Notes: generated by a model from the letters alone, not told the origin. Positions 7,981 to 43,942 are shown, counted from the first letter of the stretch. The stretch: 64,000 nucleotides of DNA from Gammaproteobacteria bacterium (GCA_016191285.1 JACPPA010000009.1:1-64000); one strand, 5' to 3'. Program-made: numbers and translations.

Positions 7981-8499
7981 TTAATCGTAGGTCGGTCGAA
8001 ACAACGATTCAATGCCTGGCAGATCCGCTGCGTCCGGATCGATACGCGAGGCGGCAAACCACACGCGATTCCGCCAGGTCTCGTGTTGGCCGTAGTCGAG
8101 CACGGCGTCGATCAAGCGCGGGTCCATCGCGGCCGTCGTATAGTCTCCGCTTATCACGCGATCGAGCAGCCGACCAAGCTGCTTGACCGCGGCACTGACC
8201 CGATCGTAATCGGTTCGATCGAGCGGACTCGCTGCGGCAAGCGCGGAGTCGAGTTCGCCGCGCAATCCCGTCTCCGCGATCACCGGCAACAGTTTACGTC
8301 CGAGCTCGCACAGCGAGTCATAGGCGCCGAGTTCAAATTTGAGCGCCATTTTCCATTGCGCTTCGAGCATTCCCAGATGACCGATGATGAGCCCGACCTG
8401 CTCGCACGCCTGTTGTTCGGAGGCCGGTACGGCCGGCAGTACGATGTCGCGTAGGGTCTTCGCGATCGCTTGCAGCCTGAGATCGATATCCGGCAGCAT
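7981..8499 (-). CDS. small helical partner protein of a phosphotransferase (paralogue 1)
   Basis: A 172-residue, mostly helical protein without signal or membrane segment. The start at 8499 is chosen because its ATG overlaps the phosphotransferase stop (TGATG), the same coupling seen for its paralogue at 12167-12694. Both share a start of the type LPDI-L...IV-PAV, a leucine-rich helix ending HLGML or LLRML, and a C-terminal RxRxW...P-IESL segment. I do not recognise a firm family. The arrangement recalls LvaB, the small subunit that works with the APH-like kinase LvaA on 4-hydroxyacyl-CoA, and DUF6285-type proteins found beside such kinases. A partner-subunit role is inferred from the coupling. 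Confidence 0.72.
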   Translation of the reverse strand: MLPDIDLRLQAIAKTLRDIVLPAVPASEQQACEQVGLIIGHLGMLEAQWKMALKFELGAYDSLCELGRKLLPVIAETGLRGELDSALAAASPLDRTDYDRVSAAVKQLGRLLDRVISGDYTTAAMDPRLIDAVLDYGQHETWRNRVWFAASRIDPDAADLPGIESLFRPTYD

Positions 8500-9674
8500 C
8501 AGCGCGCTCCCCTTATCAATTCGACGATTTGATCCATGAACACCGGGCCGGTGAACGCCACCCAGGTCAGCACCAAATCCTGATGACTTTGGCCGGCCCG
8601 CGCGGCATAACATCCGGTACTGAGCGCGAGAACCGCGCACTTCCACGCATTCAGTACTTCGTAATAGTGCAGCACATCCGGGTCGATTTTATTGCCCGTG
8701 GCCGCGGTGTATCGCGCCAGATACTCGTCCCGCGGGAGCAGGCTACAGACCAACGGTTCACCGTGTTCATCGCGCCGTAGAAAAAGCTTCTGCAGGGACC
8801 ACGCCAGATCGTCGTGAAAATCGCCGATATGCGCCAACTCCCAGTCGAGAATCGCGCTTATACGTCCACTCGGTTCTTCAAACATAAAATTACCGACGCG
8901 GTAATCGCCGTGGACCAGTACCGGCTTCATACAGACCGGCGCGTTTTCGCGCAGCCAACGTTCGGCCAGCGTGATAACCGGTAGAGATTCGACCAGATCT
9001 TGCGCCCACACGCGCGCCCACCAGTTGACTTGTCGCAACGCGGCCTGCGTCGTGCCAGGCGCGGGTGGATCGAAATCGGGCAGATGCGCCGCGCGCCAAT
9101 CGAACAGATGGAGCCGCGCGAGGTTGCCAACAAACTGCGGCGCGAGTATCGACGCCCACTTGCCGAATTGGATCCCGACCCCCGAGACGCCTTGGATCGC
9201 CGCGTCAGTCGGCTTGGTGACTCCCGCGACAAACGCCGTGATCAGACCCGGCTGACCCAAGTGAATGCCGTCGGCATCCACAAAACGCACCGGCGGCACG
9301 GTCACGGTGCCGGCCACCGCCATCAAAATTTGCGCCTCGCGACCACGACACGTTTCGACTATTCCCATGGTGGGATCCATGCGCAACACAAGACGCTCCG
9401 GCGCGGCGCTCCCGTCGTGCACGAGCGTGAAGGCGAACTGCTCTTTCGAAGCGCCACCGGTCATCCGTGCGAGGTTAGTAATTTGCACCCCACCAAAGCC
9501 TTCGGCGGCAAAAAGTCTATGTAACTGCCGGATGACTTCCGCATTCGTCCGCGCGGTGTAAGGTCCGCGTTCGGCACGGACGCGCATTTTACGGTCGAAT
9601 ACATAAGCGACTCGCGATTCGATGTCGTCGCGATCCCAGCGCGCGACAGGCGAGGACGGTGAGGGCTTGGTCAT
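8499..9674 (-). CDS. APH-fold phosphotransferase, ACAD10/11-like (paralogue A)
   Basis: A 391-residue kinase-fold protein. Visible motifs are a nucleotide-binding region MTGGASKEQFAF, the Brenner-type catalytic loop HGDYRVGNFMF (about residues 260-270), and the metal-binding ILDWELAHIGD. ACAD10/11-type phosphotransferases and bacterial LvaA phosphorylate hydroxyacyl-CoA; this protein belongs to that broad group rather than to antibiotic-resistance enzymes, judging by FVAGVTKPT and the metabolic context. It ends in a TGATG overlap with its small partner. A divergent paralogue pair lies across a shared promoter region, with a lipocalin-like gene between. The substrate is unknown. Confidence 0.82.
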   Translation of the reverse strand: MTKPSPSSPVARWDRDDIESRVAYVFDRKMRVRAERGPYTARTNAEVIRQLHRLFAAEGFGGVQITNLARMTGGASKEQFAFTLVHDGSAAPERLVLRMDPTMGIVETCRGREAQILMAVAGTVTVPPVRFVDADGIHLGQPGLITAFVAGVTKPTDAAIQGVSGVGIQFGKWASILAPQFVGNLARLHLFDWRAAHLPDFDPPAPGTTQAALRQVNWWARVWAQDLVESLPVITLAERWLRENAPVCMKPVLVHGDYRVGNFMFEEPSGRISAILDWELAHIGDFHDDLAWSLQKLFLRRDEHGEPLVCSLLPRDEYLARYTAATGNKIDPDVLHYYEVLNAWKCAVLALSTGCYAARAGQSHQDLVLTWVAFTGPVFMDQIVELIRGAR

Positions 9675-9800
9675 CGATCACGATGCTCCGTGGGATTGGA
9701 ATTATTCGCTCGCCGGATCCGCGATAAGGCCTCCCGTAAGCTAGCACAAAGCCCGTCGTGGCGGCGATACTTACCACTCGCCATTCATTAGGAGCGCGCG
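9675..9800. promoter_or_regulatory. divergent promoter region
   Basis: These 126 bases separate the starts of two divergent transcription units, the phosphotransferase pair on the minus strand and the 9801-12694 unit on the plus strand. AGGAGCGCGCG precedes the ATG at 9801 and gives a good ribosome-binding site. I cannot name clear -35/-10 boxes or an operator. Confidence 0.45.
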
Positions 9801-10928
9801 ATGATTACCACTTTAGACGACTATCCGATTCACCAGACTTCATTGCCGCTGGCGATTGTCGGCACTTCCGATCGCAATTTTTACGATCGCTTTTGGTTTA
9901 ACGGCTTCGTTGGCGACGGTTCGCTCTACTTCAGCGTGGCCATGGGCTTCTATCCTAACCGACGCGTGATGGATGGGGGCTTTAGCGTGCTGGTGGATGG
10001 GTGTCAGTATTCGCTGCATATCAGCGGCGAACTGCCATTGGATCGGGCACTGACCAAGCTCGGTCCGCTGTTGATTGAAACGATTATTCCGATGCGGCGC
10101 CATCGGGTGCGGGTGAACGATCCGGAACGCGGATTCGAAGCGGATCTCACCTTCGAGGCGGGAACCGGCACGCACGAAGAAGAACGTCAAATTCTCACCG
10201 ACGGCGTGCAGACCTCGATGGATGTGACGCGGTTAGATCAATTCGGCGCATGGTCGGGCTGGATCGTGGTCAAGGGTAAACGTATTGAAGTCGATCCCCG
10301 CGTGACCAACGGCACGCGCGATCGCTCGTGGGGTGTGCGTCCGTGTGGCGAATCCAGCGGTCGACCGCATCGCTGGGCAGCGCAAATGTATTTCGGTTGG
10401 TCGCAGACTTTTTGGGATGATTTTGTCTTGCACGGCGTGTTCTTTGTCGACGCCAAGGGCGACATCTTATTCGGCTCCGGCGCCACCATTCCGCGAGTTC
10501 CTAAAAGTGACGAACCCGTGTTCGCGCGCGATACCGGTGAAATCGCCGCCACGCCGAGCGCCTATAAATTTGACTATATCCCGGGGACGCGCCGGATCCG
10601 CCAAGCGATGACGCGCTATCGACGATTGGATGGACAAATGTTCGAAATAGAGTACGAACCGATCGTCGCGTTTCAAATGGCCGGTCTCGGGTACTTCCAC
10701 CGCGACTGGGGTCACGGTTATTGGAAAGGCAGTTACGCAATCGATGACGAGACCTGGAAGCTGGACGAGCTCGATATCACCCAACCCCACCTATTCCACG
10801 TTCAACAGGTGTGCAAAGTCACGCTGAATGGCAAGCAGAAATCCTGCGGAATACTCGAACATGCAGCGTATGGACCGCATGCGCCGAGCGGGTTCAAGGC
10901 GTTGCACGACTTGTACCAGCCGGCGTGA
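9801..10928 (+). CDS. lipocalin-like (AttH/CrtC-type) protein of unknown function
   Basis: A 375-residue soluble protein without signal peptide. It is rich in beta-strand sequence with many Trp and Tyr residues (YDRFWFNGFVGDGSLYFSV near the start; RWAAQMYFGWSQTFWDDF mid-protein). The pattern suggests the two-domain lipocalin-like fold of hydroxyneurosporene-synthase/AttH-type proteins or related DUFs, but I cannot assign a family with confidence. It starts the plus-strand unit, followed 34 bases later by a phosphotransferase and its small partner. It may bind a hydrophobic substrate shared with these kinases; this is inference from position only. Confidence 0.7.
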   Translation: MITTLDDYPIHQTSLPLAIVGTSDRNFYDRFWFNGFVGDGSLYFSVAMGFYPNRRVMDGGFSVLVDGCQYSLHISGELPLDRALTKLGPLLIETIIPMRRHRVRVNDPERGFEADLTFEAGTGTHEEERQILTDGVQTSMDVTRLDQFGAWSGWIVVKGKRIEVDPRVTNGTRDRSWGVRPCGESSGRPHRWAAQMYFGWSQTFWDDFVLHGVFFVDAKGDILFGSGATIPRVPKSDEPVFARDTGEIAATPSAYKFDYIPGTRRIRQAMTRYRRLDGQMFEIEYEPIVAFQMAGLGYFHRDWGHGYWKGSYAIDDETWKLDELDITQPHLFHVQQVCKVTLNGKQKSCGILEHAAYGPHAPSGFKALHDLYQPA

Positions 10929-10962
10929 TGACACGGGCAAAAACCAATTCGTCGCGACTCAC

Positions 10963-12165
10963 GTGACTTCGAGAGCAGTGGACAAAAACCAGCCCTCGGC
11001 GCCCTGGATCGCTCACTTGCGCGCGCGTTTCCCCTGCGAACCGGAAATCGATCGCGTGCTGACGCGCAAACTCGAGCGGCGAGCTGGGCCGGGTTATGCG
11101 TCGGTATCGTTGGCAACCCTGGTGGCAGGCATCGAATCATTGCTGCGCGCCGAGTTGCGCCAGCCTTTTACCATCGCGGAGGCGCGTTGGTTAGCGGGCG
11201 GCGCTTCGAAAGTGCAGATGGCGTTTGCCTTAACGTGGGCGCGGCCCGGACGGGGTCACGAGACCACCGCCATGGTCCTGCGCATGGAGCCGGCGGAATC
11301 GATCATCGAAACCAGCCGCTTGCGCGAATTTGAACTGATTAAAGCGTTCGCGGGCGTGGTGCCGGTACCGTCCGTGTATTGGGTCGACGCGTACGGCGAG
11401 CATCTACCGTATCCGGCGCTGATCTATGGCTTCGTCGCCGGCGTGACCAAGCCGACCCATGCCACCAGCATGGCAACCGGCATGGGTACCTACATGGCCC
11501 CCGAATGGCGCGCGCGGCTCGGACCGCAATTCGTCGAGTGCTTGGCGCGCATCCATACACGCGACGTGGCCAGCGCCGGCTTACACCACTTTGAATGTCC
11601 GCCCCCTGGCACTCGCGCGCTCGAATTGGCGTTGAATATGTGGGAGCGAGTCTGGGAAGAAGATGCGGACGAGGAGGTGCCTTTGCTGCGCCTGGCCGCG
11701 GTGTGGTTGCGCGAAAACATGCCGGTCTGCGCGCGGCCGGTGATTCTGCACGGCGATTATCGCACCGGTAATTTTCTATTCACGGAACACGACGCGCGAA
11801 TTACGGCGATCCTCGATTGGGAAATGGCGCGTATCGGCGATCATCACTACGACCTCGCATGGGCCGCGGCGCCGGCTTATGGCCACCCCGCCGAAGACGC
11901 GCGCACGTTGCTGGTGGGTGGCTTCATGTCCGAGCCGGAATTTTTTGATCGCTACCAGCGGATTTCCGGGCTGCAGCTAGATGCGAAAGCGCTGTACTAC
12001 CACAAGGTGTTTATCGGCTACGTGCAGGGCGTGATCTCGCTCGCGACCACTTATCGCATCGCGCGCAATGGCAAGACTCATCAGGATGTGCTGTTGACTT
12101 GGATCCTCGGGATCGGTTCGATGTTGATCGACGATCTGCGCAAACTGCTGGAGCTTGGAGCCTGA
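10963..12165 (+). CDS. APH-fold phosphotransferase, ACAD10/11-like (paralogue B)
   Basis: About 400 residues from a GTG at 10963; GTG 10978 is also possible, and an ATG at 10828 would overlap the preceding gene by about 100 bases. Motifs: LAGGASKVQMAF, FVAGVTKPT, catalytic loop HGDYRTGNFLF and metal site ILDWEMARIGDHHYDLAW. It is clearly paralogous to the 8499-9674 protein over its whole length, including the C-terminal THQDVLLTW. It is followed after one base by a small helical partner gene, mirroring the minus-strand pair. The function is probably phosphorylation of a hydroxylated acyl or alcohol substrate; the substrate is unknown. Confidence 0.82.
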   Translation: MTSRAVDKNQPSAPWIAHLRARFPCEPEIDRVLTRKLERRAGPGYASVSLATLVAGIESLLRAELRQPFTIAEARWLAGGASKVQMAFALTWARPGRGHETTAMVLRMEPAESIIETSRLREFELIKAFAGVVPVPSVYWVDAYGEHLPYPALIYGFVAGVTKPTHATSMATGMGTYMAPEWRARLGPQFVECLARIHTRDVASAGLHHFECPPPGTRALELALNMWERVWEEDADEEVPLLRLAAVWLRENMPVCARPVILHGDYRTGNFLFTEHDARITAILDWEMARIGDHHYDLAWAAAPAYGHPAEDARTLLVGGFMSEPEFFDRYQRISGLQLDAKALYYHKVFIGYVQGVISLATTYRIARNGKTHQDVLLTWILGIGSMLIDDLRKLLELGA

Positions 12166-12166
12166 C

Positions 12167-12694
12167 ATGCAACTGCGGCCGGACATCATTCTGACGAGCA
12201 CGATCAAATCGCTGAGCGACGTGGTCGCGCCGGCCGTCGATCCGCACAACAAGCTGGCGCAGGAACAAATCCAAATCGCGATTGGCCTGCTGCGTATGCT
12301 GGCGCGGCGCCTGCCGTTGGAATTTCGGTTTGATTGTGACGAACTGAAGCGGCTGCTCGGTTTCGCGGCCGATCTGCAGCGCCACGCGAACGACGCAGCG
12401 ACGTGCGCGCCGCTCGCTGACCTCGCGCTCGCCGCGAATGAAGGCGCCGAGATTTTGCGCCGCGCGCAGGCGGATCCGCGCGACGTGCAGAACGCCGTGC
12501 AACGACTGCGCGCGAGCAGCGGTACAGCGGTCGACGTGCTGTATCGTGAAGAGTCGCCGATAGCCAAAGCGGCGGTGAAGACACTGGTGCTCGCGCATGC
12601 GGCAGAGCAGTTGCTACGTGATCGCGCCTGGGTGAGCGCGCAGGGCTGGGAACCGCATCCCGAGGCTGTGCCGCCGCTTGAGGATCTTTTATGA
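12167..12694 (+). CDS. small helical partner protein of a phosphotransferase (paralogue 2)
   Basis: A 175-residue, all-helical, Ala/Leu-rich protein. The ATG at 12167 is taken as start because it lies one base after the phosphotransferase stop and gives an N-terminus (MQLRPDIILTSTIKSL) matching paralogue 1. The shared C-terminal pattern is RDRAWVSAQ...PPLEDL. There are no catalytic motifs or membrane segments. Duplication of the complete kinase and partner pair, with retained spacing, suggests the two proteins function together, perhaps as an LvaAB-like two-subunit kinase. Confidence 0.7.
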   Translation: MQLRPDIILTSTIKSLSDVVAPAVDPHNKLAQEQIQIAIGLLRMLARRLPLEFRFDCDELKRLLGFAADLQRHANDAATCAPLADLALAANEGAEILRRAQADPRDVQNAVQRLRASSGTAVDVLYREESPIAKAAVKTLVLAHAAEQLLRDRAWVSAQGWEPHPEAVPPLEDLL

Positions 12695-13021
12695 GCCTCT
12701 TTTGAATTTTGGGTGGGTGCGGTTACAAGCGTAATCGTCGCTAAAAGGTTAAATGGCTGACCGCGCTCGATGGTCTCTACTTCCCCCTCACCCCGGCCCG
12801 CTCCCGCGAGGGGAGAGGGAGCAATGCAAAAGCGCGATCCTTCCCCTCTTCCCTTGCGCGTAGGGTTAGGGCGAGGGGTTCGCGATCTTTCCCCTCTCCC
12901 CTTGCGGGAGAGGGGAAAGATTGAGGGGTTTAGGAGGGGTTTGGAGCGCGTGTCAACGCACCCGCTTGAATCTCAAAAGAGCCTTTTATGATGAGAATGT
13001 AGACTTCTGATCGAACGCAAC
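12695..13021. repeat. gene-free stretch with C/G-rich hairpin repeats
   Basis: No gene is supported in these 327 bases. At 12778-12815 and 12838-12935 there are degenerate copies of a CCCCTCTCCC...GGGAGAGGGG repeat seen widely between proteobacterial genes. The best hairpin is 12888-12918, a 13-bp perfect stem (TTTCCCCTCTCCC) around the loop CTTGC. The stretch lies between convergent genes and could act as a transcription terminator for both. Confidence 0.7.
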
Positions 13022-14041
13022 TCATCCCTCCAACAACTGTACTGCAAGCTCACCTCTGCGCGCGATGATGGTTTTATAGCCTTCGAGATCGAAGGCGCGC
13101 GAAGCGCCCATCGCACCCACTTTGTAACGCTTGTAGACGCCTTGCCGGATCGCGGCGATGCGCCAGTGGGAGAACGCGCGGTAATAGTTGATGTGGGTTA
13201 GGTCGAACCCGGTTAACGCGGCGTAGCGATTCATCAGTTCATCACGCGTGATGAAGCCACCGGCGGTGGTCGGCATGGCGTCGTCAACATCGCCCGTTGT
13301 TTCATCGGGCATGATCCACGTGTTCAGCAAGTAACCGAGATCGGCGAGCGGATCGCCCAGCGTGCACAGTTCCCAATCGAGCAATGCCTGGATCTTACCG
13401 CCGGCCACGATCATATTGCCGAGCCGATAATCGCCGTGCACGAGGCTGGCGCCGACTTGCACGGGCATGCGTTCGCTGAGCAGACGTAGCGCGTCGTCCA
13501 TGGCTGGCACTTCATCGATCTTGGTTTGTTCCCATTGCTGCGACCAACGTTTTAGCTGGCGCGCGATGTAATTCTCTTTGCGTCCGAGATCGCCCAAGCC
13601 GACCGTGTCCGGATTGAGCTTATGCAGCGCCGCTAACACGGCGGCGACCTGCAGACCGAGATCGCGACGTTCGGTGGCAGGGAGGGTGGCGGCGTGCGTG
13701 GCATCGTGTGGCACCAGTCCGGCCACGAAGCGCATCACGAAGAACGGCGCGCCGTTCACGCTGAGGTCGGTGCACAGGCCGTAGGTGGATGCCACCGGCA
13801 CTTGGCTGCCGGCCAGCGCCGAGATCACGCGAAACTCCCGCCCCATGTCGTGCGCGCTTTCCAGCACATGACCGAGTGGCGGCCGGCGTAAGACATAGCG
13901 CTTGCCAATGGCATCGTCGCAGGCGTAGGTCAAATTCGAATGACCGCCTGCGATTAGGGTGTAGTTCACCGGTGGCTTTAGCCTGCGGATATGCGCCGCC
14001 AACCACGCGGTAACTTGGGGTTCGTTGATGCCTTCGATCAT
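13022..14041 (-). CDS. phosphotransferase family protein (ACAD10/11-like)
   Basis: A 339-residue APH-fold protein. Motifs: GGHSNLTYAC near residue 30 (nucleotide-binding region), RRPPLGHVLESAHDMGREF typical of the ACAD10/11-type bacterial family, catalytic loop HGDYRLGNMIV (about 200-210), and metal site ALLDWELCTLGDPLADLGY. In other bacteria this subfamily is often beside acyl-CoA dehydrogenases and is thought to phosphorylate hydroxylated fatty acyl groups. It is shorter and less like the two paralogues at 8499-9674 and 10963-12165, and it has no small partner gene. The first ATG (14041) is used. Confidence 0.85.
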   Translation of the reverse strand: MIEGINEPQVTAWLAAHIRRLKPPVNYTLIAGGHSNLTYACDDAIGKRYVLRRPPLGHVLESAHDMGREFRVISALAGSQVPVASTYGLCTDLSVNGAPFFVMRFVAGLVPHDATHAATLPATERRDLGLQVAAVLAALHKLNPDTVGLGDLGRKENYIARQLKRWSQQWEQTKIDEVPAMDDALRLLSERMPVQVGASLVHGDYRLGNMIVAGGKIQALLDWELCTLGDPLADLGYLLNTWIMPDETTGDVDDAMPTTAGGFITRDELMNRYAALTGFDLTHINYYRAFSHWRIAAIRQGVYKRYKVGAMGASRAFDLEGYKTIIARRGELAVQLLEG

Positions 14042-14102: not shown

Positions 14103-14475
14103 TCACTTTCTGCTCGCTGCCGTAAGTTTTTTGTCGAGCGTGAGCAATTCACAGTGGAGCTCATTGGCGAGCCATAGGTAACAGGCGTCGTAAACAGTGA
14201 GGCCGGTCCGTTCGGCAAGCAATATAACTTCCGTATGTTCGATAGGCGAGGTGTCGATGTCGAGACGAGTCATCATTTGAAACGCCGCGATCAGTACATC
14301 GCGCTGACGGGCATGTGCGCGAAGTTTCTTTAGGCAAACGCTTGCAAGCTCAAGCGTGATCAAGGGGGGGTGCAACTAACGAGTCGCCAGCAATCTGCTC
14401 GATAATTTTTTCAGCGTCCGGTTCATTGAATAGAATGGCCGCTACCGCCGAGGCATCAACAACCTTAACGGGCAT
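14103..14475 (-). pseudogene. vapC: VapC-type PIN-domain toxin, frameshifted in a C7 tract
   Basis: The ATG at 14475 opens MPVKVVDASAVAAILFNEPD, a PIN-domain N-terminus with the first acidic residues Asp7 and Glu18. The frame runs to a seven-C tract (plus-strand G run 14364-14370), after which it hits a stop within a few codons. One C fewer would continue smoothly into PPLITLELAS and the remainder to 14103, including YDACYLWLA and LLTLDKKL with the other catalytic acids. The intact gene would be about 124 residues, normal for VapC. It overlaps vapB by 11 bases. It is a pseudogene, a phase-variable gene or a base-call error; the sequence alone cannot decide. Confidence 0.8.
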
Positions 14476-14701
14476 CGCGGTTCGCGCGGATCGCGGCGGT
14501 CGCTTCGCGGGGCGTACGCAGTCCAGTGTCGCGAACCAGCTGCAATAACTCGCGAGCGTTTATTTTGTTCGCAGGCGTTACCGCATCTTGTAATAGCACC
14601 AAGAGTTCGCCTTGCAGCGAACGATGATTGGCTTTGGCTCTCTGGCGTAGTTTTGCAGCCACCTGGTCCGGTACATTTTTAACTGAAAGATTGACGGGCA
14701 T
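14465..14701 (-). CDS. vapB: VapB/FitA-like ribbon-helix-helix antitoxin
   Basis: A 78-residue protein with an N-terminal ribbon-helix-helix domain of FitA type (LSVKNVPDQVAAKLRQRA, then RSLQGELLVLL), followed by a tail that should bind the toxin. The start at 14701 is chosen because GGAGG lies about 8 bases upstream; a longer frame to 14749 would begin with an unlikely hydrophobic extension. It overlaps the downstream vapC start (ATGCCCGTTAA). Such antitoxins normally repress their own operon. With vapC frameshifted, it may persist alone as an orphan DNA-binding protein. Confidence 0.85.
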   Translation of the reverse strand: MPVNLSVKNVPDQVAAKLRQRAKANHRSLQGELLVLLQDAVTPANKINARELLQLVRDTGLRTPREATAAIRANRDAR

Positions 14702-14996
14702 TGGCGCATCCTCCGTATAGGTTCCGGTTTGGAGCCATAATAGAACCAAGCGAATTCTCGAATCAATGTCTAATAGGTTAGTGCACGAAGACGTAAAGCG
14801 ATCCCGTCGTTAAGGATCGATTACCAGGCGCTTGCCAATATTCCGCAGCGGAGGTGCGGTTTGCACGACGCCAGATTCGTTTTATAGTCGCCGCTGCCGC
14901 GCCTGCGTCAGAATCCGGCGAGTCGCGCCAAACAGTTCCATTTCGATGCGGCGCGCCGAAACGCCGCGCGACGCTACGACTTGCGATGGGGGAGTG

Positions 14997-17300
14997 ATGA
15001 CTTCATTGACGCTTGAACTTCGTAGTTCCGAAGCGCCAACCATTAAAAGCACGCTCGCGGATTCCAGCACTTATATCCTGGATCACGGCGGCGTCATCGA
15101 GACCGAGGATCGTGTTGGCCAGCGCGCTCAGTTGCGCCTGGTCACCGCGCTCCAACAACTCTACGTCGAACCCGGCGCCGATGCGACCTTACTAGTCAAT
15201 GGCAAACCAGCCAGCGGCCGAACCGCGGTTCACCACGGTGACTGGGTAACGGTCAGCAATGTGGTCTATCAAATTAGCCTCACTCAAAGCACCGCATCGG
15301 CAACCCCAGCCGTGACCGCGGCGACTGTGCGGGTTGCCGCTGAACCGCCTCGACGAGTTGTCGCGACAGGTGGCACGCACGTGGTGATTGGCCGGCACCG
15401 AGATTGCACGCTTGCGATCGAGTCACCGCTGGTGTCGCGTGAGCATGCCCGCCTTCAAGCCGACGGCGGGCAGTGGTTCATCGAAGACTTGGGCAGCATC
15501 AACGGCACCTTTGTTAATGGGCGAAGAATTCGCGAGCGCGTCGCGCTCAATGCCGGAGATAAGGTCGGGATCGCCACTTTCCTTTATCGCTTCACTGGCG
15601 ACGGTTTGCTGGCCGATGGCGAAGAGGGGCGGGTGCGGATCGAGGCCCTGGGCGTGACCAAGACGGTGCGCGATCGGGCGAGCGGCCAGTCGCGGAAATT
15701 ACTTGACGATATCTCGCTTGTGATCGAACCGGGAGAGTTTGTCGTCATCTTCGGCGGCAGTGGCAGCGGTAAATCGACCTTGCTCGACACCCTGAACGGA
15801 CGCCGTCCCGCGAGCGCCGGCCGCATCCTGTACAACGGACTCGATTTTTACTCCGCGTTCGACATGTTTCGAGCGACCATCGGTTATGTGCCGCAGCAGG
15901 ACATCGTGCACCGGCGCATCAAAATGCGCCGCGCGCTCGACTATGCCGCACGTCTACGCTTGCCGGTGGATACCGCCGAGCATGAAATCGCCGCCTACCT
16001 CAAAGCAGTGCTAAAAAGCGTGCGGCTCGAGGAGCAGGCGGAACTATTAATCGATACGCCCGCGCCGTTGAGCGGCGGCCAGTTGAAGCGCGTCAGCTTG
16101 GCTGCCGAGTTGATCGCCAAACCTGGGGTGTTGTTTCTCGATGAAGTCACCAGCGGTCTCGATGCGGGCACTGACCGGCAAATGATGCAAACGTTCGCGG
16201 AACTCGCGGACGCGGGTAAGACCGTCGTTTGCGTGACCCATACCTTGGAAAATATCGCGGCATGTCAGTTGGTGACCTTGCTCCATCGCGGCCGACTCGC
16301 CTATTTCGGGCCGCCGGCTGAAGTCCAGGACTACTTCAAGATCAATCGGCTCTCGGATATTTACGAAGTGCTGGATACCAAGCGGCCCGAACATTGGGCG
16401 GATAAGTTCAGGGACTCGCCGTTGCGGCAACGTTACGTGTTGGATCGATTGTCGCCTGCGGCGCTTGCTGCGCCCGTGTCCGCGTCGCCGAGAGCGATCG
16501 CCACGACCGCGCGACGCAGCAGTTTTTGGCGCCAAACCAGGATCCTTACGCAACGCTATGTTGATCTCATGCTCGGCGATAAGCGCAATCTAGGCATATT
16601 ATTACTGCAAGCGCCGTTGATCGGCGCGGTGGTCGGTACCGTTTTTGACAGTGGCGGCGCGTTGCCGGCGCAGGCTGCCGCGCAGAGTCAGATCGCTTTT
16701 ATGTTGGTGCTGTCGGCAATCTGGTTTGGATGCCTCGATTCCGCGCGTGAAATAGTCAAGGAACTGCCGGTCTATCTGCGCGAGCGGGCGGTGAATCTAG
16801 GCCTTGCCCCGTACATCCTGAGCAAGCTCTTGCCGCTGGCGGCGCTGTGCCTCCTTCAATGCCTGCTGCTGCTCGGCACGGTGTCGAGCTTGGTTTCCTT
16901 GCCGGGGGATTTCATGCCGCGCTTGTTGTTGCTCACGGTTACGGCGTTTGCGGCTGCCGCCATGGGCCTGGCCATTAGCGCGTTTGTCGATACCAACGAC
17001 AAGGCCATCGCAATGGTCCCCATCTTACTTATTCCGCAAGTCGTGTTGTCCAATGCGGTCGCCAAACTCGCCGGCGCGAGTTTATGGATGGCCAAGTTTT
17101 CGATGATTTCGTTCTGGGCGTATGATGCGTTGAAATCAACACTGAGCGCCGAGGTGCGCGGCGTGCATGATGCCGTTGGCGCCGCGTTGATCCCGGTGCT
17201 TGAGCCTTATGCGAAGAGTCTTGGGGTAATCGCGCTCATGACGGTGGCGTTCTTGGTACTGGTAGGGATCGGTCTCGTGCTCAAAGACCGCAAAAATTAG
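14997..17300 (+). CDS. FHA-domain ABC transporter, ATPase and permease in one chain
   Basis: A 767-residue protein from the ATG at 14997 (GGGGGAG just upstream). Domains: a degenerate FHA-like region (about 20-95); a canonical FHA domain (about 125-195) with GRHRD, SREHARL and SINGTFVNG; an ABC ATPase with Walker A GGSGSGKST (253-261), Q-loop VPQQD, signature LSGGQ (358-362) and Walker B VLFLDEVTSGLD; then an ABC2-type membrane domain (about 520-767) with about six helices. The ABCG-like half-transporter layout implies a dimer. FHA domains bind phosphothreonine, and a Ser/Thr kinase is encoded 22 bases downstream, so kinase-controlled assembly or activity is likely. The substrate is unknown. 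Confidence 0.88.
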   Translation: MTSLTLELRSSEAPTIKSTLADSSTYILDHGGVIETEDRVGQRAQLRLVTALQQLYVEPGADATLLVNGKPASGRTAVHHGDWVTVSNVVYQISLTQSTASATPAVTAATVRVAAEPPRRVVATGGTHVVIGRHRDCTLAIESPLVSREHARLQADGGQWFIEDLGSINGTFVNGRRIRERVALNAGDKVGIATFLYRFTGDGLLADGEEGRVRIEALGVTKTVRDRASGQSRKLLDDISLVIEPGEFVVIFGGSGSGKSTLLDTLNGRRPASAGRILYNGLDFYSAFDMFRATIGYVPQQDIVHRRIKMRRALDYAARLRLPVDTAEHEIAAYLKAVLKSVRLEEQAELLIDTPAPLSGGQLKRVSLAAELIAKPGVLFLDEVTSGLDAGTDRQMMQTFAELADAGKTVVCVTHTLENIAACQLVTLLHRGRLAYFGPPAEVQDYFKINRLSDIYEVLDTKRPEHWADKFRDSPLRQRYVLDRLSPAALAAPVSASPRAIATTARRSSFWRQTRILTQRYVDLMLGDKRNLGILLLQAPLIGAVVGTVFDSGGALPAQAAAQSQIAFMLVLSAIWFGCLDSAREIVKELPVYLRERAVNLGLAPYILSKLLPLAALCLLQCLLLLGTVSSLVSLPGDFMPRLLLLTVTAFAAAAMGLAISAFVDTNDKAIAMVPILLIPQVVLSNAVAKLAGASLWMAKFSMISFWAYDALKSTLSAEVRGVHDAVGAALIPVLEPYAKSLGVIALMTVAFLVLVGIGLVLKDRKN

Positions 17301-17322
17301 CGGCCGAGGACTAATCGACACG

Positions 17323-19011
17323 ATGGAAGACTTGGACCGCACCGAACTCGCAGATCCCGATCCGACCCGCACGCTGGCATTGACCAAGCGCACGGCCGGC
17401 GAATATCAATGCCCGCGTTGTTTTACCGCATACAGCCGCGACTCCATTCGGCCTCCCGAGTACAAGTGCAGCTGTGGTCTAGAGCTCGCCTATCCCGAAA
17501 TTTCGCCCGGCGGCGAGGTGAAAGGAGTGTTGGGCTGGCTCAGCTCGCCCGGCACCGTCGTCCATCAACGTTATCGAGTAGTTCAGCTCTTGGGTCGTGG
17601 CGGATTCGGCTCAACTTATCTCGCCGAGGATATGAAGCTCAGCAATAAGCGCTGGGCGCTCAAAGAAATTCCGGAGCTCATGTTCGATGAGCACGAGAGC
17701 CGGATCCTCGCCAAGCTCAATCATCCCTCTATTCCGGGCATCACCGATCGCGAAGTGGTCGACGGCATGGTCTACATGGTGTTGGAATTCGGCGGTAATC
17801 GGACGTTCGAAACCGTGCGTCGGGCGACGCCCGACAAGCGGATTGGCTTAAGCCAGCTTGCGCCCTGGGCACGGCAATTGTGCGATGTCCTCGCCTACAT
17901 GCACGCGCAGACGCCGCCGATCGTGCATCGCGATCTAAAACCCGGCAATGTGCTGCTCGATGATCAGGACCGGGTCATGCTGATCGATTTCGGGATCGCC
18001 AAGGAAGCGATCGAATCCGAGCAAACCCGCGCGCTCGGGCGCGCGGTGACCCATGGCTTTAGCCCACCCGAGCAGGCGATGGGGAGCGGTACCGATGCGC
18101 GATCGGACGTCTATGCATTAGGCGCGACGATATACTACATGCTGACCGCGCAACGTCCACCGGGTGCGCGCGAGCGCATCCAAGGCATTGAGATCGGGTT
18201 GCCTTCGACGCTCGTGCCCGGGATCCCACCGGCAATCGATCGAGCCCTCCTGCAAGCCCTGTCGCTGAATCCGAACGAGCGTCAGCAAACGGTTCAAGAA
18301 TTCGGTCGTGCGTTCGATTACGACGCGCCGACGGTGAAGACCTACGATGATTTCGCAGGCCCCGAACGCACGGTGCTGGTCGGCAGCGCGACCACCACGC
18401 GCTCGGTGCCGACAACCCGTCCGCAGAAATCACTGAGACTGGGACCGGAAGGCGCGGCGGTAGTGTTGGATCAAGTCGCGAGTGCGCCGCGCGGCAACCG
18501 CCTGTGGCTGATTGCAGTCGGTGCGGGTACGTTGGTGGTGGCAGCGATCGTTGGCACCTATCTTTTTACTCGCTCCAATTCAACGCCCGCAGTGGTCAGT
18601 CCCAGTGCGGCGGCGATTGCGGCGGCGGCGCCGCCAGCTGCTACTGCGCCGCCGCCACTTACACCCAGCGCCCCAGTGGTTTCCATGAGTCCGAGCGGGT
18701 CTTCGCCGCCAACGGTTACCGCCGCGGTAGCGCCGGCACCCGTCATATCGCCGCCACCCGTCTCGGGATCGTCGGCGATGGAGGAACTCCTTAAGCGCCG
18801 ACAAAGCAGCGTCGAGGAGCCGGTGGCATATACCCATCCATCCGCAACCATAGACAAGCCGCCCACGAAATCGGTAAAACCGAATACGCCGTATAAACCC
18901 AAACCGGCGCCGGTCGCGGCGGTAGCGCCGCCAGCGCCGCTCGCGCCAAGCGTGCCGGCCGCCGCTGGTAGCTGGCAAAAGGCGAACGCGAACACCCAGT
19001 TTAATGAGTAG
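17323..19011 (+). CDS. membrane-anchored Ser/Thr protein kinase with zinc-ribbon N-terminus
   Basis: A 562-residue protein. A short N-terminal CPRC...CSC zinc-ribbon (about residues 30-51) precedes a Hanks-type kinase domain: glycine loop GRGGFGSTYL (91-100), Lys114, catalytic HRDLKPGNV (202-210) and DFGIAKE (222-228). A single transmembrane helix spans about 393-415, followed by a long Pro/Ala-rich extracytoplasmic tail ending in PAAAGSWQKANANTQFNE. All catalytic residues are present. It stands between the FHA-ABC transporter, its likely phospho-reader, and a secreted VWA protein. A 19-bp tandem repeat covers its stop codon. Confidence 0.9.
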   Translation: MEDLDRTELADPDPTRTLALTKRTAGEYQCPRCFTAYSRDSIRPPEYKCSCGLELAYPEISPGGEVKGVLGWLSSPGTVVHQRYRVVQLLGRGGFGSTYLAEDMKLSNKRWALKEIPELMFDEHESRILAKLNHPSIPGITDREVVDGMVYMVLEFGGNRTFETVRRATPDKRIGLSQLAPWARQLCDVLAYMHAQTPPIVHRDLKPGNVLLDDQDRVMLIDFGIAKEAIESEQTRALGRAVTHGFSPPEQAMGSGTDARSDVYALGATIYYMLTAQRPPGARERIQGIEIGLPSTLVPGIPPAIDRALLQALSLNPNERQQTVQEFGRAFDYDAPTVKTYDDFAGPERTVLVGSATTTRSVPTTRPQKSLRLGPEGAAVVLDQVASAPRGNRLWLIAVGAGTLVVAAIVGTYLFTRSNSTPAVVSPSAAAIAAAAPPAATAPPPLTPSAPVVSMSPSGSSPPTVTAAVAPAPVISPPPVSGSSAMEELLKRRQSSVEEPVAYTHPSATIDKPPTKSVKPNTPYKPKPAPVAAVAPPAPLAPSVPAAAGSWQKANANTQFNE

Positions 19012-19039
19012 GCAAACCGTTAATGAGCAGACAAACCGT
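19002..19039. repeat. 19-bp tandem duplication across the kinase stop codon
   Basis: TAATGAGTAGGCAAACCGT (19002-19020) is directly repeated as TAATGAGCAGACAAACCGT (19021-19039), with two differences. The first copy carries the kinase stop (TAG, 19009-19011); in the second it is CAG. The duplication pushes the TAGGAG ribosome-binding site and start of the VWA gene 19 bases further from the kinase stop. Confidence 0.85.
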
Positions 19040-19049
19040 TTAGGAGTAA

Positions 19050-20210
19050 ATGATGTACGCAGGACTCACTCGACTAGCGACTTCCAACCCTGGCCGCTGG
19101 ACGTGCGGCCCGCTGCTCGCGTGTCTTGTGACCGCGCTGATAACGGTCGCGGCTCATGCGCAAAGCACTGCACCGGGTACTTATGGCGTCAAAGTTTACC
19201 GCGTGGATTCCAGTCTCTATCCTTACGTCCAAGTATTCTTTCGTACGTTTAACGAGGCCAAGCAACCCTTGGTGAATCTAAACGAACTGAACGTCGGGCT
19301 GATGGTGAAAGGTCGCTCATACGACCCCACCAAACGCCAGTACAAGGTGGAGTCGGTACGGCAGAAACAAGTCGGCACGCGGACGGTCCTCGTGCTCGAC
19401 GCCAGCAAGTCCATGGCCGGACCGCCGTTCGAGTCGACCCTGCGCGCCGCGGCCCGCTACATCGACAGTAAACGGCCACAAGACGAAGTGGCGGTGCTGG
19501 CGATTCGCGATACCAAAGAGGGTTACTCGCCGGTTTCAACCTTTGAACGCGATCCGGCAGCACTCGCGCGGCGCCTGGCTGACGTGCAGGTGGATGGGCA
19601 GCACACCCGTCTCTACGACAGTCTGGCGGCGGCGATCCAATTATGCGGCGCGAGCGGGCAGGGGGCCCTGACTCCCGGTATCGACAATTTCATCGTGTCG
19701 TGTTCGGTGGTGGTGTTCTCGGACGGCTGGGATGAGGGGAGTGCCTTGTCACGTGAAGAACTCAACGGTCGAATCACCAACATGGGCATCCCGATCCCGA
19801 TTTATTCCTTGGCCTATTCGAAACATAGCGATCAGCACTTCAAGAATCTCGAAGCGCTGTCGAAAAACTCGTTTGGCAATTACTACCTGGTCGGCGAGAC
19901 CTTCGATCGCATGCAGCAGATTGTGGAAGAGATTCAAAACATAATTCAGAGCGACTACGTGGTGACGTTTCGCTCCTATGTGCCGGTGGATGGTGAGACC
20001 CATGCCTTGAAGCTTGGCATCGAGTACCCATCGGGAAGCGGCAAGTTCACTTACGACGCGGGTAGCTTCGAGGCGATCGAGCCGCCGCCGCTGGGTGGCG
20101 TGGCAGAAAAGCTCGGCGCCTTAACGCGAACCATTCCGCCACTACCGACCGCGAATCCCTTTTTCGAAGCACCGGCGGCTGCCGCGGCACCCCCGCCGGC
20201 GACCCATTAA
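19050..20210 (+). CDS. secreted VWA-domain protein
   Basis: A 386-residue protein with a Sec signal peptide (hydrophobic about 22-38, ending AAHAQ). The von Willebrand factor A domain carries an intact MIDAS start DASKS (about residue 115) and a later SDGWDEGS motif, so metal-dependent ligand binding is likely. The C-terminal tail is Pro/Ala-rich. Two adjacent ATGs (19050, 19053) follow TAGGAG. It lies in a co-directional run with kinase, lipoprotein and metalloprotease. A periplasmic adhesion or scaffold role is inferred. Confidence 0.85.
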   Translation: MMYAGLTRLATSNPGRWTCGPLLACLVTALITVAAHAQSTAPGTYGVKVYRVDSSLYPYVQVFFRTFNEAKQPLVNLNELNVGLMVKGRSYDPTKRQYKVESVRQKQVGTRTVLVLDASKSMAGPPFESTLRAAARYIDSKRPQDEVAVLAIRDTKEGYSPVSTFERDPAALARRLADVQVDGQHTRLYDSLAAAIQLCGASGQGALTPGIDNFIVSCSVVVFSDGWDEGSALSREELNGRITNMGIPIPIYSLAYSKHSDQHFKNLEALSKNSFGNYYLVGETFDRMQQIVEEIQNIIQSDYVVTFRSYVPVDGETHALKLGIEYPSGSGKFTYDAGSFEAIEPPPLGGVAEKLGALTRTIPPLPTANPFFEAPAAAAAPPPATH

Positions 20211-20250
20211 CGCAGTACCAAACTCCATTACTTTCAATCAGGAGATCAGC

Positions 20251-20868
20251 ATGACTACGACTTACAGAAAGACTGCCTTCAGTACCGCCCTCTGCGGTGT
20301 GTTGCTCGTTGGCTGCGCTGGGAATCCAACCACGACCCAACAATCAACCACGGCTACTGCCGCCCTGGGCGCATTGGTTGGGGGATTGGCAGGTGGCTGG
20401 GAAGGCGCTGCAATCGGGGCTGCCAGTGGCGCGTTGGTCGGTTGGGCCGCGGGGAAGGTAATTGAATCGCAGGAAATCGCGGCCCGTAGCCAAACTAAAG
20501 ACCAGCAGCTCTACGGTTACGCCGCGCCTGCGGATAGCACCTTCGTCCACATTAATTCCGCGACGTCGAATCCCCAGATCGTTGCGCCGAATAGCGTGGT
20601 TAATGTGGTTACCGACTACTCGTTGGCGCTGCCCAAGAACGCGCCGCAGACGCAGGTTTCGGTGACCGGCGTATTGCTCAAGGACGGCGTGCAACTCATG
20701 GACTTCAAGAATCAGCCGGTGGCCAAGACTGCTGGCGGCTACACCGTTAAATTACCGGTTAACATTCCGGCGGATGCGGCGGCGGGCACTTACGTGATTC
20801 GGCATACGATCAGCGCCGGCACGACTTATGACACCGCCGAATCGACCTTCGTCGTAAGAAAGGCCTGA
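20251..20868 (+). CDS. glycine-zipper lipoprotein
   Basis: A 205-residue protein. The lipobox LLVGC (Cys about 22) marks an outer-membrane or periplasmic lipoprotein. A glycine-zipper hairpin (about 35-70: ALGALVGGLAGGWEGAAIGA and onward) follows, similar to Rcs-type surface lipoproteins. The C-terminal half is a beta-sandwich-like domain (VVNVVTDYSLALP...AGTYVIRHTISAG) that resembles surface-exposed adhesion or filament proteins. AGGAG upstream gives the start. It belongs to the kinase/VWA/protease cluster; the precise role is unknown. Confidence 0.82.
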   Translation: MTTTYRKTAFSTALCGVLLVGCAGNPTTTQQSTTATAALGALVGGLAGGWEGAAIGAASGALVGWAAGKVIESQEIAARSQTKDQQLYGYAAPADSTFVHINSATSNPQIVAPNSVVNVVTDYSLALPKNAPQTQVSVTGVLLKDGVQLMDFKNQPVAKTAGGYTVKLPVNIPADAAAGTYVIRHTISAGTTYDTAESTFVVRKA

Positions 20869-20878
20869 GTTCGCGCCC

Positions 20879-21616
20879 ATGATGACGCGAGCGGTACTGG
20901 TACTTGTACTGCTTGCGACCTCCGTCCACGCCGCGCCGGTACTTGAGGCATGTCCGGCGGAAATCCGCCGTGCCAGTGATACGCTCGGCCAAATCTTTCG
21001 CCAGTGGCCGTTGCGCGCCACCGGCGATCCGATCGACTCGGCATTGCAAGCAGTGGCGAGTCAGCTCGCCGAGCGTGCGGGCGAGTCGACGCATCGTCGC
21101 TGGCGTACTCATGTTGTTCGCGATTCCAAACTCAACGCCTTCTCGATTGGTGACGGCCACATCTTCGTTACCGAGGGCATGTTGCGCTTTGTGACCAGCG
21201 AAGACGAACTCGCGGCGTTGCTGGCGCATGAATTCGGACATCACATCGCAGGTCATTTCTGTCAGACGAATGAACCGTCGGGATTTTTCAGCCACCTGTT
21301 TGGTCGCGGCGAAGCGCCCGAGGAACAACGGCAAGTGGGTGAACTTTCAGCGTCCATCGATTCCACGAAAGAACGTGAAGCGGATCGGATCGGAGTAATT
21401 ATCTTAAAGCGCGGAGGGTATAACCCACGCGCCGCGATCTTGCTCGCGGCCCGCATGGCGGCTAGTGGCACGCCGGCGCACTTCCAATACGGCCAGCGAA
21501 TCGAGGCCCTCCGGAAATTAATGACGGGTGTACCCCATACCGCTTGGGTGACCAATGATTCGGCGCCGTTTACGCGCTTGCAGGACGCACTGCGGGCGGA
21601 AGTGGGAAGTTCGTAG
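20879..21616 (+). CDS. secreted M48-family metalloprotease
   Basis: A 245-residue protein with a signal peptide (about 1-19). The zinc motif HEFGHH is at about residues 118-123, and the distal KEREADRIGV segment supplies the third zinc ligand. This is the BepA/LoiP-like or Oma1-like M48 type without membrane helices. It starts 10 bases after the lipoprotein gene and closes the FHA-ABC/kinase cluster, so envelope quality control or processing of the VWA protein or lipoprotein is plausible. The next gene is convergent. Confidence 0.86.
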   Translation: MMTRAVLVLVLLATSVHAAPVLEACPAEIRRASDTLGQIFRQWPLRATGDPIDSALQAVASQLAERAGESTHRRWRTHVVRDSKLNAFSIGDGHIFVTEGMLRFVTSEDELAALLAHEFGHHIAGHFCQTNEPSGFFSHLFGRGEAPEEQRQVGELSASIDSTKEREADRIGVIILKRGGYNPRAAILLAARMAASGTPAHFQYGQRIEALRKLMTGVPHTAWVTNDSAPFTRLQDALRAEVGSS

Positions 21617-41545: not shown

Positions 41546-42865
41546 ATGAATAAACCCGGAAAAATCGGCTTCGTCAGTTTGGGCTGTCCTAAAGCCCTGG
41601 TCGATTCCGAGCGAATTTTGACGCAGCTAAAACTCGACGGCTACGCGCTGACCAATTCGTATGACGGGGCCGATCTCGTCGTCGTGAATACCTGCGGATT
41701 CATCGATAGCGCCAAAGCGGAATCGTTGGCGGCGATTGGCGAGGCGTTACACGCCAACGGACGCGTGATCGTCACCGGCTGTTTAGGGGCTCAGGCGGAA
41801 ACGATTCGCGAAGCCCATCCCAACGTGCTGCACATCTCGGGACCGCAACAATACGAAGCGGTGGTCGCCGCCGTTCATGAACACGTGCCGCTCACCGCCA
41901 CGCCTGACCCGCGTATCGATTTAGTGCCGGCCCAGGGCATTAAGCTCACGCCGCGGCATTACGCGTACTTGAAGATCTCCGAAGGCTGTAATCACCACTG
42001 CAGTTTCTGCATCATCCCGTCCATGCGTGGCAAATTGGTGTCGCGGCCATTGTCCGAAATCATGGGCGAAGCCGAACGGTTGGTCGCGGCGGGAGTGCGT
42101 GAACTACTCGTTATTTCGCAGGACACAAGCGCCTACGGTTCCGATCTCAAAACTCGAACCAGTTTTTGGCAGGGTCGGCCGTTACACGCAAGCTTCGCTG
42201 GATTATGCGCGGCACTCGGCGAACTTGGGGTGTGGGTTCGACTGCACTACGTCTATCCATACCCGCATGTCGACGACGTGCTGCCACTGATGGCCGACGG
42301 TAAAATTCTGCCGTATCTCGATATTCCTTTTCAGCACGGTAGTCCGCGCATTTTGAAATTGATGCGCCGGCCCGCCGCAGCCGAGAATACCCTGGAACGC
42401 ATTCGACGCTGGCGTGAAGTGTGTCCGGAACTTGTATTACGCAGCACGTTTATCGTCGGCTTCCCCGGTGAAACGGACGCGGATTTTCGAACCTTGTTGG
42501 ATTTTCTCAGCGCGGCGGAACTCGATCGCGTGGGATGCTTTCAGTATTCACCAGTGGCCGGTGCGGCGGCGAATCGATTGCCGGACCCAGTACCGGCTGC
42601 GATCATGCAAGCGCGTTACGCTGAGTTCATGATCGTGCAACAGGCGATTAGTCGACGGCGTTTGCAACGTCAAGTCGGCAGGCGGCTTTCGGTATTGATC
42701 GATCGCCTGGAAGACCAGGCAGCGGTCGGCCGCAGCTATGCGGATGCACCAGAAATCGACGGCCTGGTTTACGTCAAACCGAAGACCAGACTAGCGCCCG
42801 GCGAGCTGGTCGAGGTCACCATCGACAGTAGCGATGACTACGATCTCCACGGGCGCATTGACTAG
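41546..42865 (+). CDS. rimO: ribosomal protein S12 methylthiotransferase RimO
   Basis: A 439-residue radical-SAM methylthiotransferase. The N-terminal UPF0004 domain starts [19 protein letters not shown], with cysteines for the first cluster; the radical-SAM cluster motif is [15 protein letters not shown]; a TRAM domain closes the protein. RimO modifies Asp of ribosomal protein S12. The start at 41546 (MNKPGKIG) matches the family; an upstream extension would overlap the GGT gene. It is a housekeeping gene apart from the preceding metabolic run. Confidence 0.95.
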
Positions 42866-43072
42866 CCCCGGCGACTGATCCCGCCGCACTCAACGGCGAA
42901 GTGGAAATATCGGCCCTCTTGAACGGCCCCCGCTTAAGATCCCAGGTCGTGGGTGAAAACACGGCGATTCGCCGCCCACCGGCATCCCAATTTCCGTGGT
43001 GCGGCAGCGCTCCGCTGGCACCTCCAGCCGCCATTGCGTAACATCAAACTGTTAAAAAGTGTGGAGACAGGC

Positions 43073-43942
43073 GTGACCAGGGTCGCATTCATCGGCTTAG
43101 GCGTCATGGGATATCCCATGGCCGGCCACCTTGCGCGCGCCGCCCACGCGGTAACCGTGTTCAATCGAACGACGAGCAAGGCTGAGCGCTGGATCGCGGA
43201 GTACCGTGGTGAAGCGGCACGGACTCCGCGTGCCGCCGCGCATGCCGCGGCGGTGGTTTTCTCCTGTGTTGGCAACGACGACGATCTGCGCGAAGTCGTC
43301 AGCGGCGCGGACGGGGCGTTCGCGGGCATGGCGCCCGGCAGTTTGTTCGTCGATCACTCGACGACCTCGGCGCGGGTGGCGCGCGAATTGGCGGTGCTGG
43401 CTGCCGAGCGCCAAATCGAGTTCATCGATGCGCCGGTGTCAGGCGGTCAGGTCGGCGCTGAAAAAGGTGTGTTGACCATCATGGCGGGCGGCAATGAAGC
43501 CGCTTATCAGCAGGCCGCGCCCTTACTCGGCGCTTACGCTAAAAGTGTGCGGCGCATCGGGCCGGTCGGCGCAGGTCAATTGACCAAAATGGTGAATCAA
43601 ATCTGTTGTGCCGGCGTCATCCAGGGCCTCGCGGAGGGACTCAATTTCGGACTGCAAGCCGGGCTCGATATGGAAGAAGTGGTGGCGGTAATTGCCAACG
43701 GCGCGGCACAATCCTGGCAGATGGATAACCGGGCACATACGATGCTTAACGGTGAATACGCTTTCGGATTCGCGGTCGACTGGATGCGTAAGGATTTAGG
43801 GATCGTGTTGGATGAAGCGCGCCGTAACGGCGCCGATCTCCCGACGACCGCGGTGATCGACCAATTCTTCGGCGAGCTGCAGCGACGGCAGCGGAACCGC
43901 TGGGACACTTCCAGTCTCATGACGCTGTTGCGGGATCGCTAG
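43073..43942 (+). CDS. 3-hydroxyisobutyrate dehydrogenase-family oxidoreductase
   Basis: About 289 residues from a GTG at 43073 with GGAG upstream; an ATG at 42953 would add 40 poorly matching residues. It has Rossmann motif FIGLGVMGYPMAGHL, substrate motif DAPVSGGQVGAEKGVLTIMAGG and catalytic Lys in GAGQLTKMVNQI. Members oxidise beta-hydroxyacids (3-hydroxyisobutyrate, tartronate semialdehyde and others) with NAD(P). Specificity cannot be set by sequence alone. It precedes the Sel1-repeat gene by one base. Confidence 0.9.
   Translation: MTRVAFIGLGVMGYPMAGHLARAAHAVTVFNRTTSKAERWIAEYRGEAARTPRAAAHAAAVVFSCVGNDDDLREVVSGADGAFAGMAPGSLFVDHSTTSARVARELAVLAAERQIEFIDAPVSGGQVGAEKGVLTIMAGGNEAAYQQAAPLLGAYAKSVRRIGPVGAGQLTKMVNQICCAGVIQGLAEGLNFGLQAGLDMEEVVAVIANGAAQSWQMDNRAHTMLNGEYAFGFAVDWMRKDLGIVLDEARRNGADLPTTAVIDQFFGELQRRQRNRWDTSSLMTLLRDR

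Follow-up and report, generated by a model that had tools for sequence, protein, structure and literature searches.

A 64,000-nucleotide stretch of DNA from a gammaproteobacterium (GCA_016191285.1, JACPPA010000009.1:1-64000; the whole stretch is referred to here as the window) contains an operon that joins a predicted FHA-ABCG-type exporter to a transmembrane Ser/Thr kinase, a secreted or periplasmic VWA protein, a glycine-zipper lipoprotein and a secreted M48 metalloprotease. We propose that these genes constitute a dedicated phospho-signalling and export operon, in which a kinase-gated ABCG exporter or flippase would be combined with an envelope sensor or quality-control arm, a reading to which we give roughly even credence on the evidence of the sequences.

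The five open reading frames are co-directional on the + strand between positions 14997 and 21616, with intergenic gaps of 22, 38, 40 and 10 bp. An earlier note on this DNA, made from the sequence alone, had listed the same genes at the same coordinates, and its gene list and domain calls were both right. Domains were assigned by Pfam with curated cut-offs and by NCBIfam, and all five proteins have Pfam matches above the curated cut-offs. The exporter (14997..17300, 767 aa) matches FHA (9e-23), ABC_tran (7e-26) and ABC2_membrane (1e-18), and the kinase (17323..19011, 562 aa) matches Pkinase (1.3e-32). The VWA protein (19050..20210, 386 aa) is recognized by VWA_2 (5e-9), the lipoprotein (20251..20868, 205 aa) by Gly-zipper_YMGG (8e-8) and the protease (20879..21616, 245 aa) by Peptidase_M48 (4.8e-19). 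The complete kinase motifs, zinc-ribbon and VWA MIDAS that the note had described are likewise present. The kinase motifs, the MIDAS, the M48 motifs and the lipobox Cys are conserved across homologues; the signal peptides of the VWA and M48 proteins, the lipobox and the transmembrane helix of the kinase were read straight from the sequence. Promoter and terminator scans gave scores not above those of shuffled sequence.

The exporter starts at ATG 14997; an alternative in-frame TTG upstream, at 14832, is less likely to be the start because orthologues begin near the ATG. The protein has a tandem FHA layout, in which a degenerate FHA-like region (aa ~1-95) precedes a canonical FHA domain at aa 129-193 (nt 15381-15572). 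In the window the first region keeps its VNG...GDW part, its GR and SxxH phosphate-binding residues are missing, and it has no Pfam FHA match, so that the function of this first domain has likely been lost although the layout is tandem. The canonical domain matches the Rv1747 FHA structures 6ccd and 6cah. Its GR, SREH/SRRH and NG residues, which are of the types named as phosphothreonine-binding motifs (PMC1262709), are kept in every copy with a canonical FHA, including an FHA-only form found in the genome G091 (see below). The nucleotide-binding domain (NBD) carries Walker A/B and LSGGQ motifs, with Walker A, LSGGQ, Walker B and the H-loop invariant in 9 orthologues, and the ABC-2 membrane domain occupies aa ~512-709.

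The kinase consists of an N-terminal zinc-ribbon, a Hanks-type kinase domain, a juxtamembrane linker, one transmembrane helix (aa ~394-415) and a periplasmic tail. The catalytic K, HRDLKP and DFG motifs and the activation-loop Thr are conserved in 13 sequences. In the window the zinc-ribbon reads C-x2-C...C-x-C, and relatives outside the family of the window's organism have C-x2-C...C-x2-C. The linker between kinase domain and membrane is poorly conserved apart from a single residue, Thr350 (T350; codon 18370..18372, + strand), which is the sole invariant juxtamembrane residue, present in 13/13 kinase homologues in the context (R/K)-T-(V/T). We propose that T350 is the predicted autophosphorylation site on which the FHA domain would dock. 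The periplasmic tail is Pro/Ala-rich and of low complexity; an SA-x-E-x-L-x-KR motif is loosely conserved in it, and it ends in a W motif.

On the envelope side, the VWA protein has a signal peptide and an intact MIDAS (DASKS, FSDG; DxSxS), and at 61–84% identity over all loci it is the best-conserved soluble component; its predicted structure is usable in the VWA core alone, the model being poor elsewhere. The lipoprotein combines a lipobox (Cys22), Ala at +2, a glycine zipper and a C-terminal Ig-like beta-sandwich, and it is probably directed to the outer membrane. Residues 98-202 form the beta-sandwich in the AlphaFold prediction (pLDDT ~90), and comparison of the fold with the PDB returned a generic Ig-like sandwich and no informative match. 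The zinc ligands of the M48 protein, HEFGH and EAD, are intact in the window, and HExxH is kept in all 11 copies. The nearest solved structures are the M48 protein 3c37 and BepA. Like the envelope proteases of the BepA/LoiP type it is a secreted M48 protein with HExxH and weak profile matches to them, but the BepA and LoiP NCBIfam scores are far under the curated cut-offs (48.5 vs 570 and 22.4 vs 365 bits), and in contrast to BepA it is a stand-alone protein of 245 aa that has no TPR part and is tied to a kinase operon.

The earlier note had made its proposal depend on the genes being kept together in relatives, and they are: the five genes keep their order in 10 genomes from three families, namely the window's own, G174 and eight from the Methylotuvimicrobium family (G249, G699, G706, G826, G693, G716, G767 and G749). 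The order FHA-ABC, kinase, VWA, lipoprotein, M48 is maintained at 34–65% protein identity with flanks that differ between genomes, and the identity of the lipoprotein and of M48 among the copies falls to about 34%. A class-wide search with the exporter returned two full-length relatives from other genera (G249 and G174), and in both the exporter gene sits within the five-gene set, arranged as in the window. Within the Methylotuvimicrobium family the module was found in 10/151 genomes and 6/29 genera, while among 398 genomes sampled from the phylum the VWA protein was present in the window's own genome only. A scan of a genome collection with the VWA protein yielded at least 7 loci, including Methylotuvimicrobium buryatense 5G and Methylomicrobium sp. 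wino1, an undercount given the two narrow peptide patterns used. The module is thus rare and patchy, yet kept together, and the conserved order in 10 genomes combined with the patchy distribution indicates that the genes are gained and lost jointly. The pairwise identities of all six module proteins are strongly correlated (Mantel r 0.67–0.99), which is weak evidence for co-function because shared species phylogeny could yield the same correlation. A plasmid or phage origin was rejected, since neither 72,556 plasmids nor the viral contigs scanned contained a match to the VWA protein.

Some copies are incomplete or irregular. In G277, of the same genus as the window's organism, the set is divided between two contig ends; a contig titled as a Klebsiella pneumoniae MAG (CAMATU010000194.1, L045, 8605 bases) is identical with contig 194 of this genome and apparently mislabelled. 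Apparent frameshifts occur in the exporter and VWA genes of G174 and in the VWA gene of G738, and these may be assembly errors. G738 also contains a tandem pair of lipoproteins of the module family (L077 178-558 and 1649-2236), one of them inside a longer frame.

The methanotroph copies carry an additional member. A PP2C phosphatase gene directly follows M48 on the same strand and is the last gene in 8/8 methanotroph loci, where on the evidence of its predicted function it completes a set of writer, reader and eraser. The window operon has no adjacent PP2C or DUF4359 gene, and three PP2C candidates are located elsewhere in the genome. The best PP2C homologue lies on contig 27 beside a kinase and an FHA protein; this separate kinase-PP2C-FHA triad (L056, about 42007-43934) might supply the phosphatase that the operon lacks. 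DUF4359 proteins occur between M48 and PP2C in G826 and G693 (L074 13813-14136; L075 7564-7887), in two copies in G174 (L039 3559-3879 and 1891-2199), and directly after VWA in a Syntrophobacterales MAG (L050 3117-3395). Because DUF4359 recurs inside or beside the module, it may be a module component. In Methylotuvimicrobium (L038, L049, L051 and L078) an SPFH/Band_7-GYF_2 protein and a zinc-ribbon membrane protein adjoin the module upstream of the exporter, a flank reminiscent of membrane-stress gene clusters.

A reduced variant occurs in G091, a genome of the window's family rated 100% complete: ABC part and VWA are gone, and what is retained is an FHA-only protein together with kinase, lipoprotein and protease. 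The FHA-only protein has 192 aa and ends right after the FHA domain, with the kinase directly next to it (L041 7540-8115 and 5676-7547). The joint loss hints that exporter and VWA cooperate and that the four retained parts make up another sub-unit, as far as a single event can tell. Like the lack of an adjacent PP2C in the window, it is a point against the gated-exporter reading, in that the core for phospho-signalling appears to keep a function where the exporter has been lost.

The closest characterised relative of the kinase-exporter pair is found in M. tuberculosis, where the Ser/Thr kinase PknF and the ABC exporter Rv1747, with its tandem FHA domains, are encoded in one operon of two genes. 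PknF positively modulates the exporter (PMC3908365), and FHA I of Rv1747 binds a phosphothreonine partner (PMC5549992). In the window, too, the kinase gene adjoins a single-chain exporter of tandem FHA layout, ABCG-like NBD and ABC-2 domain. The FHA-NBD-TMD chain has intact phosphothreonine-binding residues, and 22 bp downstream of its gene is that of a transmembrane Hanks-type kinase with intact catalytic motifs, the predicted writer. The two systems differ in that only the second FHA is canonical here, in contrast to the two functional FHA domains of the PknF-Rv1747 type. Moreover, the first FHA is degenerate, there is no long inter-FHA linker, and the kinase has an N-terminal zinc-ribbon. 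The operon also adds VWA, the glycine-zipper lipoprotein and M48, with PP2C and DUF4359 elsewhere, and belongs to a Gram-negative envelope. FHA-ABCG proteins encoded on cyanobacterial and actinobacterial plasmids are 34–41% identical to that of the window over FHA+NBD+TMD. In Brasilonema (cyanobacteria) the tandem-FHA ABC-2 exporter adjoins a kinase, and in Rhodococcus it lies near kinases, but neither has an annotated VWA/lipoprotein/M48 set, and the third genes in Brasilonema are different ones, encoding WD40 and Ig_VWA7-like proteins. The earlier claim that no characterised system has this exact set had overlooked PknF-Rv1747. It holds for the larger set with VWA, lipoprotein and M48 (and PP2C elsewhere), in that a search of open-licence papers for the gene combination found no description of it. 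The kinase-exporter core is therefore already known, and the larger ordered set is a previously undescribed extension.

These features lead us to the following scheme. The periplasmic tail of the kinase, together with the VWA protein and the lipoprotein, would receive an envelope signal, upon which the kinase would autophosphorylate, most likely at sites that include the juxtamembrane Thr350. The canonical FHA of the exporter, to judge from its intact phosphothreonine-binding residues, could then dock on the phosphothreonine of the kinase, and the activity of a homodimeric ABCG pump would be confined to the sites and times of kinase activity, in the way PknF modulates Rv1747. PP2C, the last gene in the methanotroph copies and presumably encoded elsewhere in the window's genome, would reset the switch. 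The pump would export or flip an envelope component, VWA and lipoprotein may serve as periplasmic acceptor or sensor, and M48 might process, quality-control or turn over VWA/lipoprotein parts. Phosphorylation-gated export with extracytoplasmic processing, as the earlier note had suggested, is thus plausible. The gene content, its order and conservation, the intact motifs and the independence from type VI secretion are observed; each interaction of the scheme, its signal and its cargo are inferred. A phosphothreonine-gated ABCG exporter appears to be the simplest explanation because a writer, a reader fused to the pump and, in relatives, an eraser are encoded together, with envelope proteins across the membrane. 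To our knowledge, the Rv1747-PknF pair has been studied in one pathogen, and its cargo and docking site are not settled. The gating of ABC exporters by phosphothreonine docking becomes testable in a compact Gram-negative cluster that unites predicted writer, reader and eraser, has an invariant T350 and is present in cultured methanotrophs such as Methylotuvimicrobium buryatense 5G. Such a cluster would also show that the kinase/VWA/lipoprotein/FHA logic of type VI secretion occurs where there is no secretion machine.

Chief among the alternatives is a pathway for sensing, with transport secondary, in which envelope damage would be detected, the ABC part would be a sensor or structural element, and the state of the outer membrane would be reported to other cytoplasmic targets, as a T6SS-free counterpart of the threonine phosphorylation pathway of type VI secretion (T6SS). 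We regard it as doubtful, if still worth serious attention. It draws on the PpkA-PppA-Fha1-TagQRST pathway of P. aeruginosa (PMC3224232, PMC6657622), which likewise comprises a membrane Ser/Thr kinase, an FHA reader, a periplasm-facing VWA, an outer-membrane lipoprotein and an ABC transporter; its PP2C has an adjacent counterpart in the methanotroph loci, and in the window's genome candidates on other contigs. The kinase PpkA bears a C-terminal, extracellular VWA domain (PMC3224232, PMC1262709), which would here be split off as the gene next to the kinase, and the outer-membrane lipoprotein TagQ, TagR and the ABC transporter TagST act upstream of PpkA (PMC6657622). The retention of the signalling part in G091 and the presence of a lipoprotein and an M48 protein, both typical of envelope quality control, also agree with sensing. 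However, TagST are separate proteins whereas here there is a single ABCG-type chain, and the fusion of FHA to an ABC part whose NBD motifs are all invariant argues for regulated transport. The similarity of the lipoprotein to TagQ is limited to the common glycine zipper: homology was rejected at 20 bits vs a cut-off of 300, and across 369 genomes TagQ-type matches cover the glycine zipper only, in many unrelated OmpA-like lipoproteins. Among these genomes a single locus is truly TagQ-like (L093), and its neighbours do not resemble the module. Unlike the PpkA pathway, the operon has a VWA that is a separate protein, an FHA fused to an ABCG exporter and an added M48, and it has no TagR. Nor does the window's genome contain a T6SS: as the earlier note had stated, this is not type VI secretion, the TssB sheath gene (PF05591) being without a match in the window's genome and in five others of the 14 module genomes. 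Membership in the T6SS threonine phosphorylation pathway fails because there is no sheath, the similarity to TagQ is confined to the zipper, and the VWA is unfused.

An accessory or orphan regulator set of a T6SS would share the logic of kinase, FHA and phosphatase, and the sheath gene is indeed present in 8/14 module genomes. Where present it is located away from the module (in G249, for example, at 0.89 and 4.78 Mb vs 2.39 Mb), and the sheath-free genomes include, besides the window's, G706 and G738, which are 98–100% complete; we find this explanation very improbable. Somewhat easier to entertain, though unlikely, is an export and maturation system, in which the ABCG pump would secrete a lipid, glycolipid or peptide, M48 with VWA and lipoprotein would process, receive or display it, and the kinase would only fine-tune the process. 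In its favour M48 follows the lipoprotein in each locus whose contig covers this part of the cluster (the Syntrophobacterales MAG excepted), lipoprotein and VWA bear export signals, and Rv1747 has been implicated in the export of a cell-wall component or PIM (PMC3908365, PMC5549992). However, the set is not accompanied by any conserved gene for a small precursor peptide or for biosynthesis, the flanks vary, and ABCG proteins mostly move lipids and small molecules rather than peptides for M48. That the five are a chance neighbourhood of unrelated envelope genes might have been argued from the view of one genome, since both glycine-zipper lipoproteins and M48 proteases are widespread, but the five-gene order in 10 genomes with different flanks refutes it and leaves it next to no credence. 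Returning to the phosphorylation-gated exporter, we can tentatively carry the comparison with PpkA one step further, to a T6SS-independent transenvelope phosphothreonine circuit. Here the split PpkA-like kinase/VWA pair, the lipoprotein and the protease would read the envelope, an FHA-ABCG pump resettable by PP2C would be the direct effector, and local envelope damage would switch on the export of an envelope component. Such a circuit is possible, though less likely than not.

In the window, positions 8499-14041 hold a cluster with three genes of the APH/phosphotransferase family, inside which (9801-10928) is a 375 aa protein without a Pfam match. Just upstream of the operon, at 14103-14749 (- strand) and thus divergent from it, is a pair encoding a FitA-like antitoxin and a PIN-domain protein, a toxin-antitoxin arrangement in which the PIN reading frame is short.
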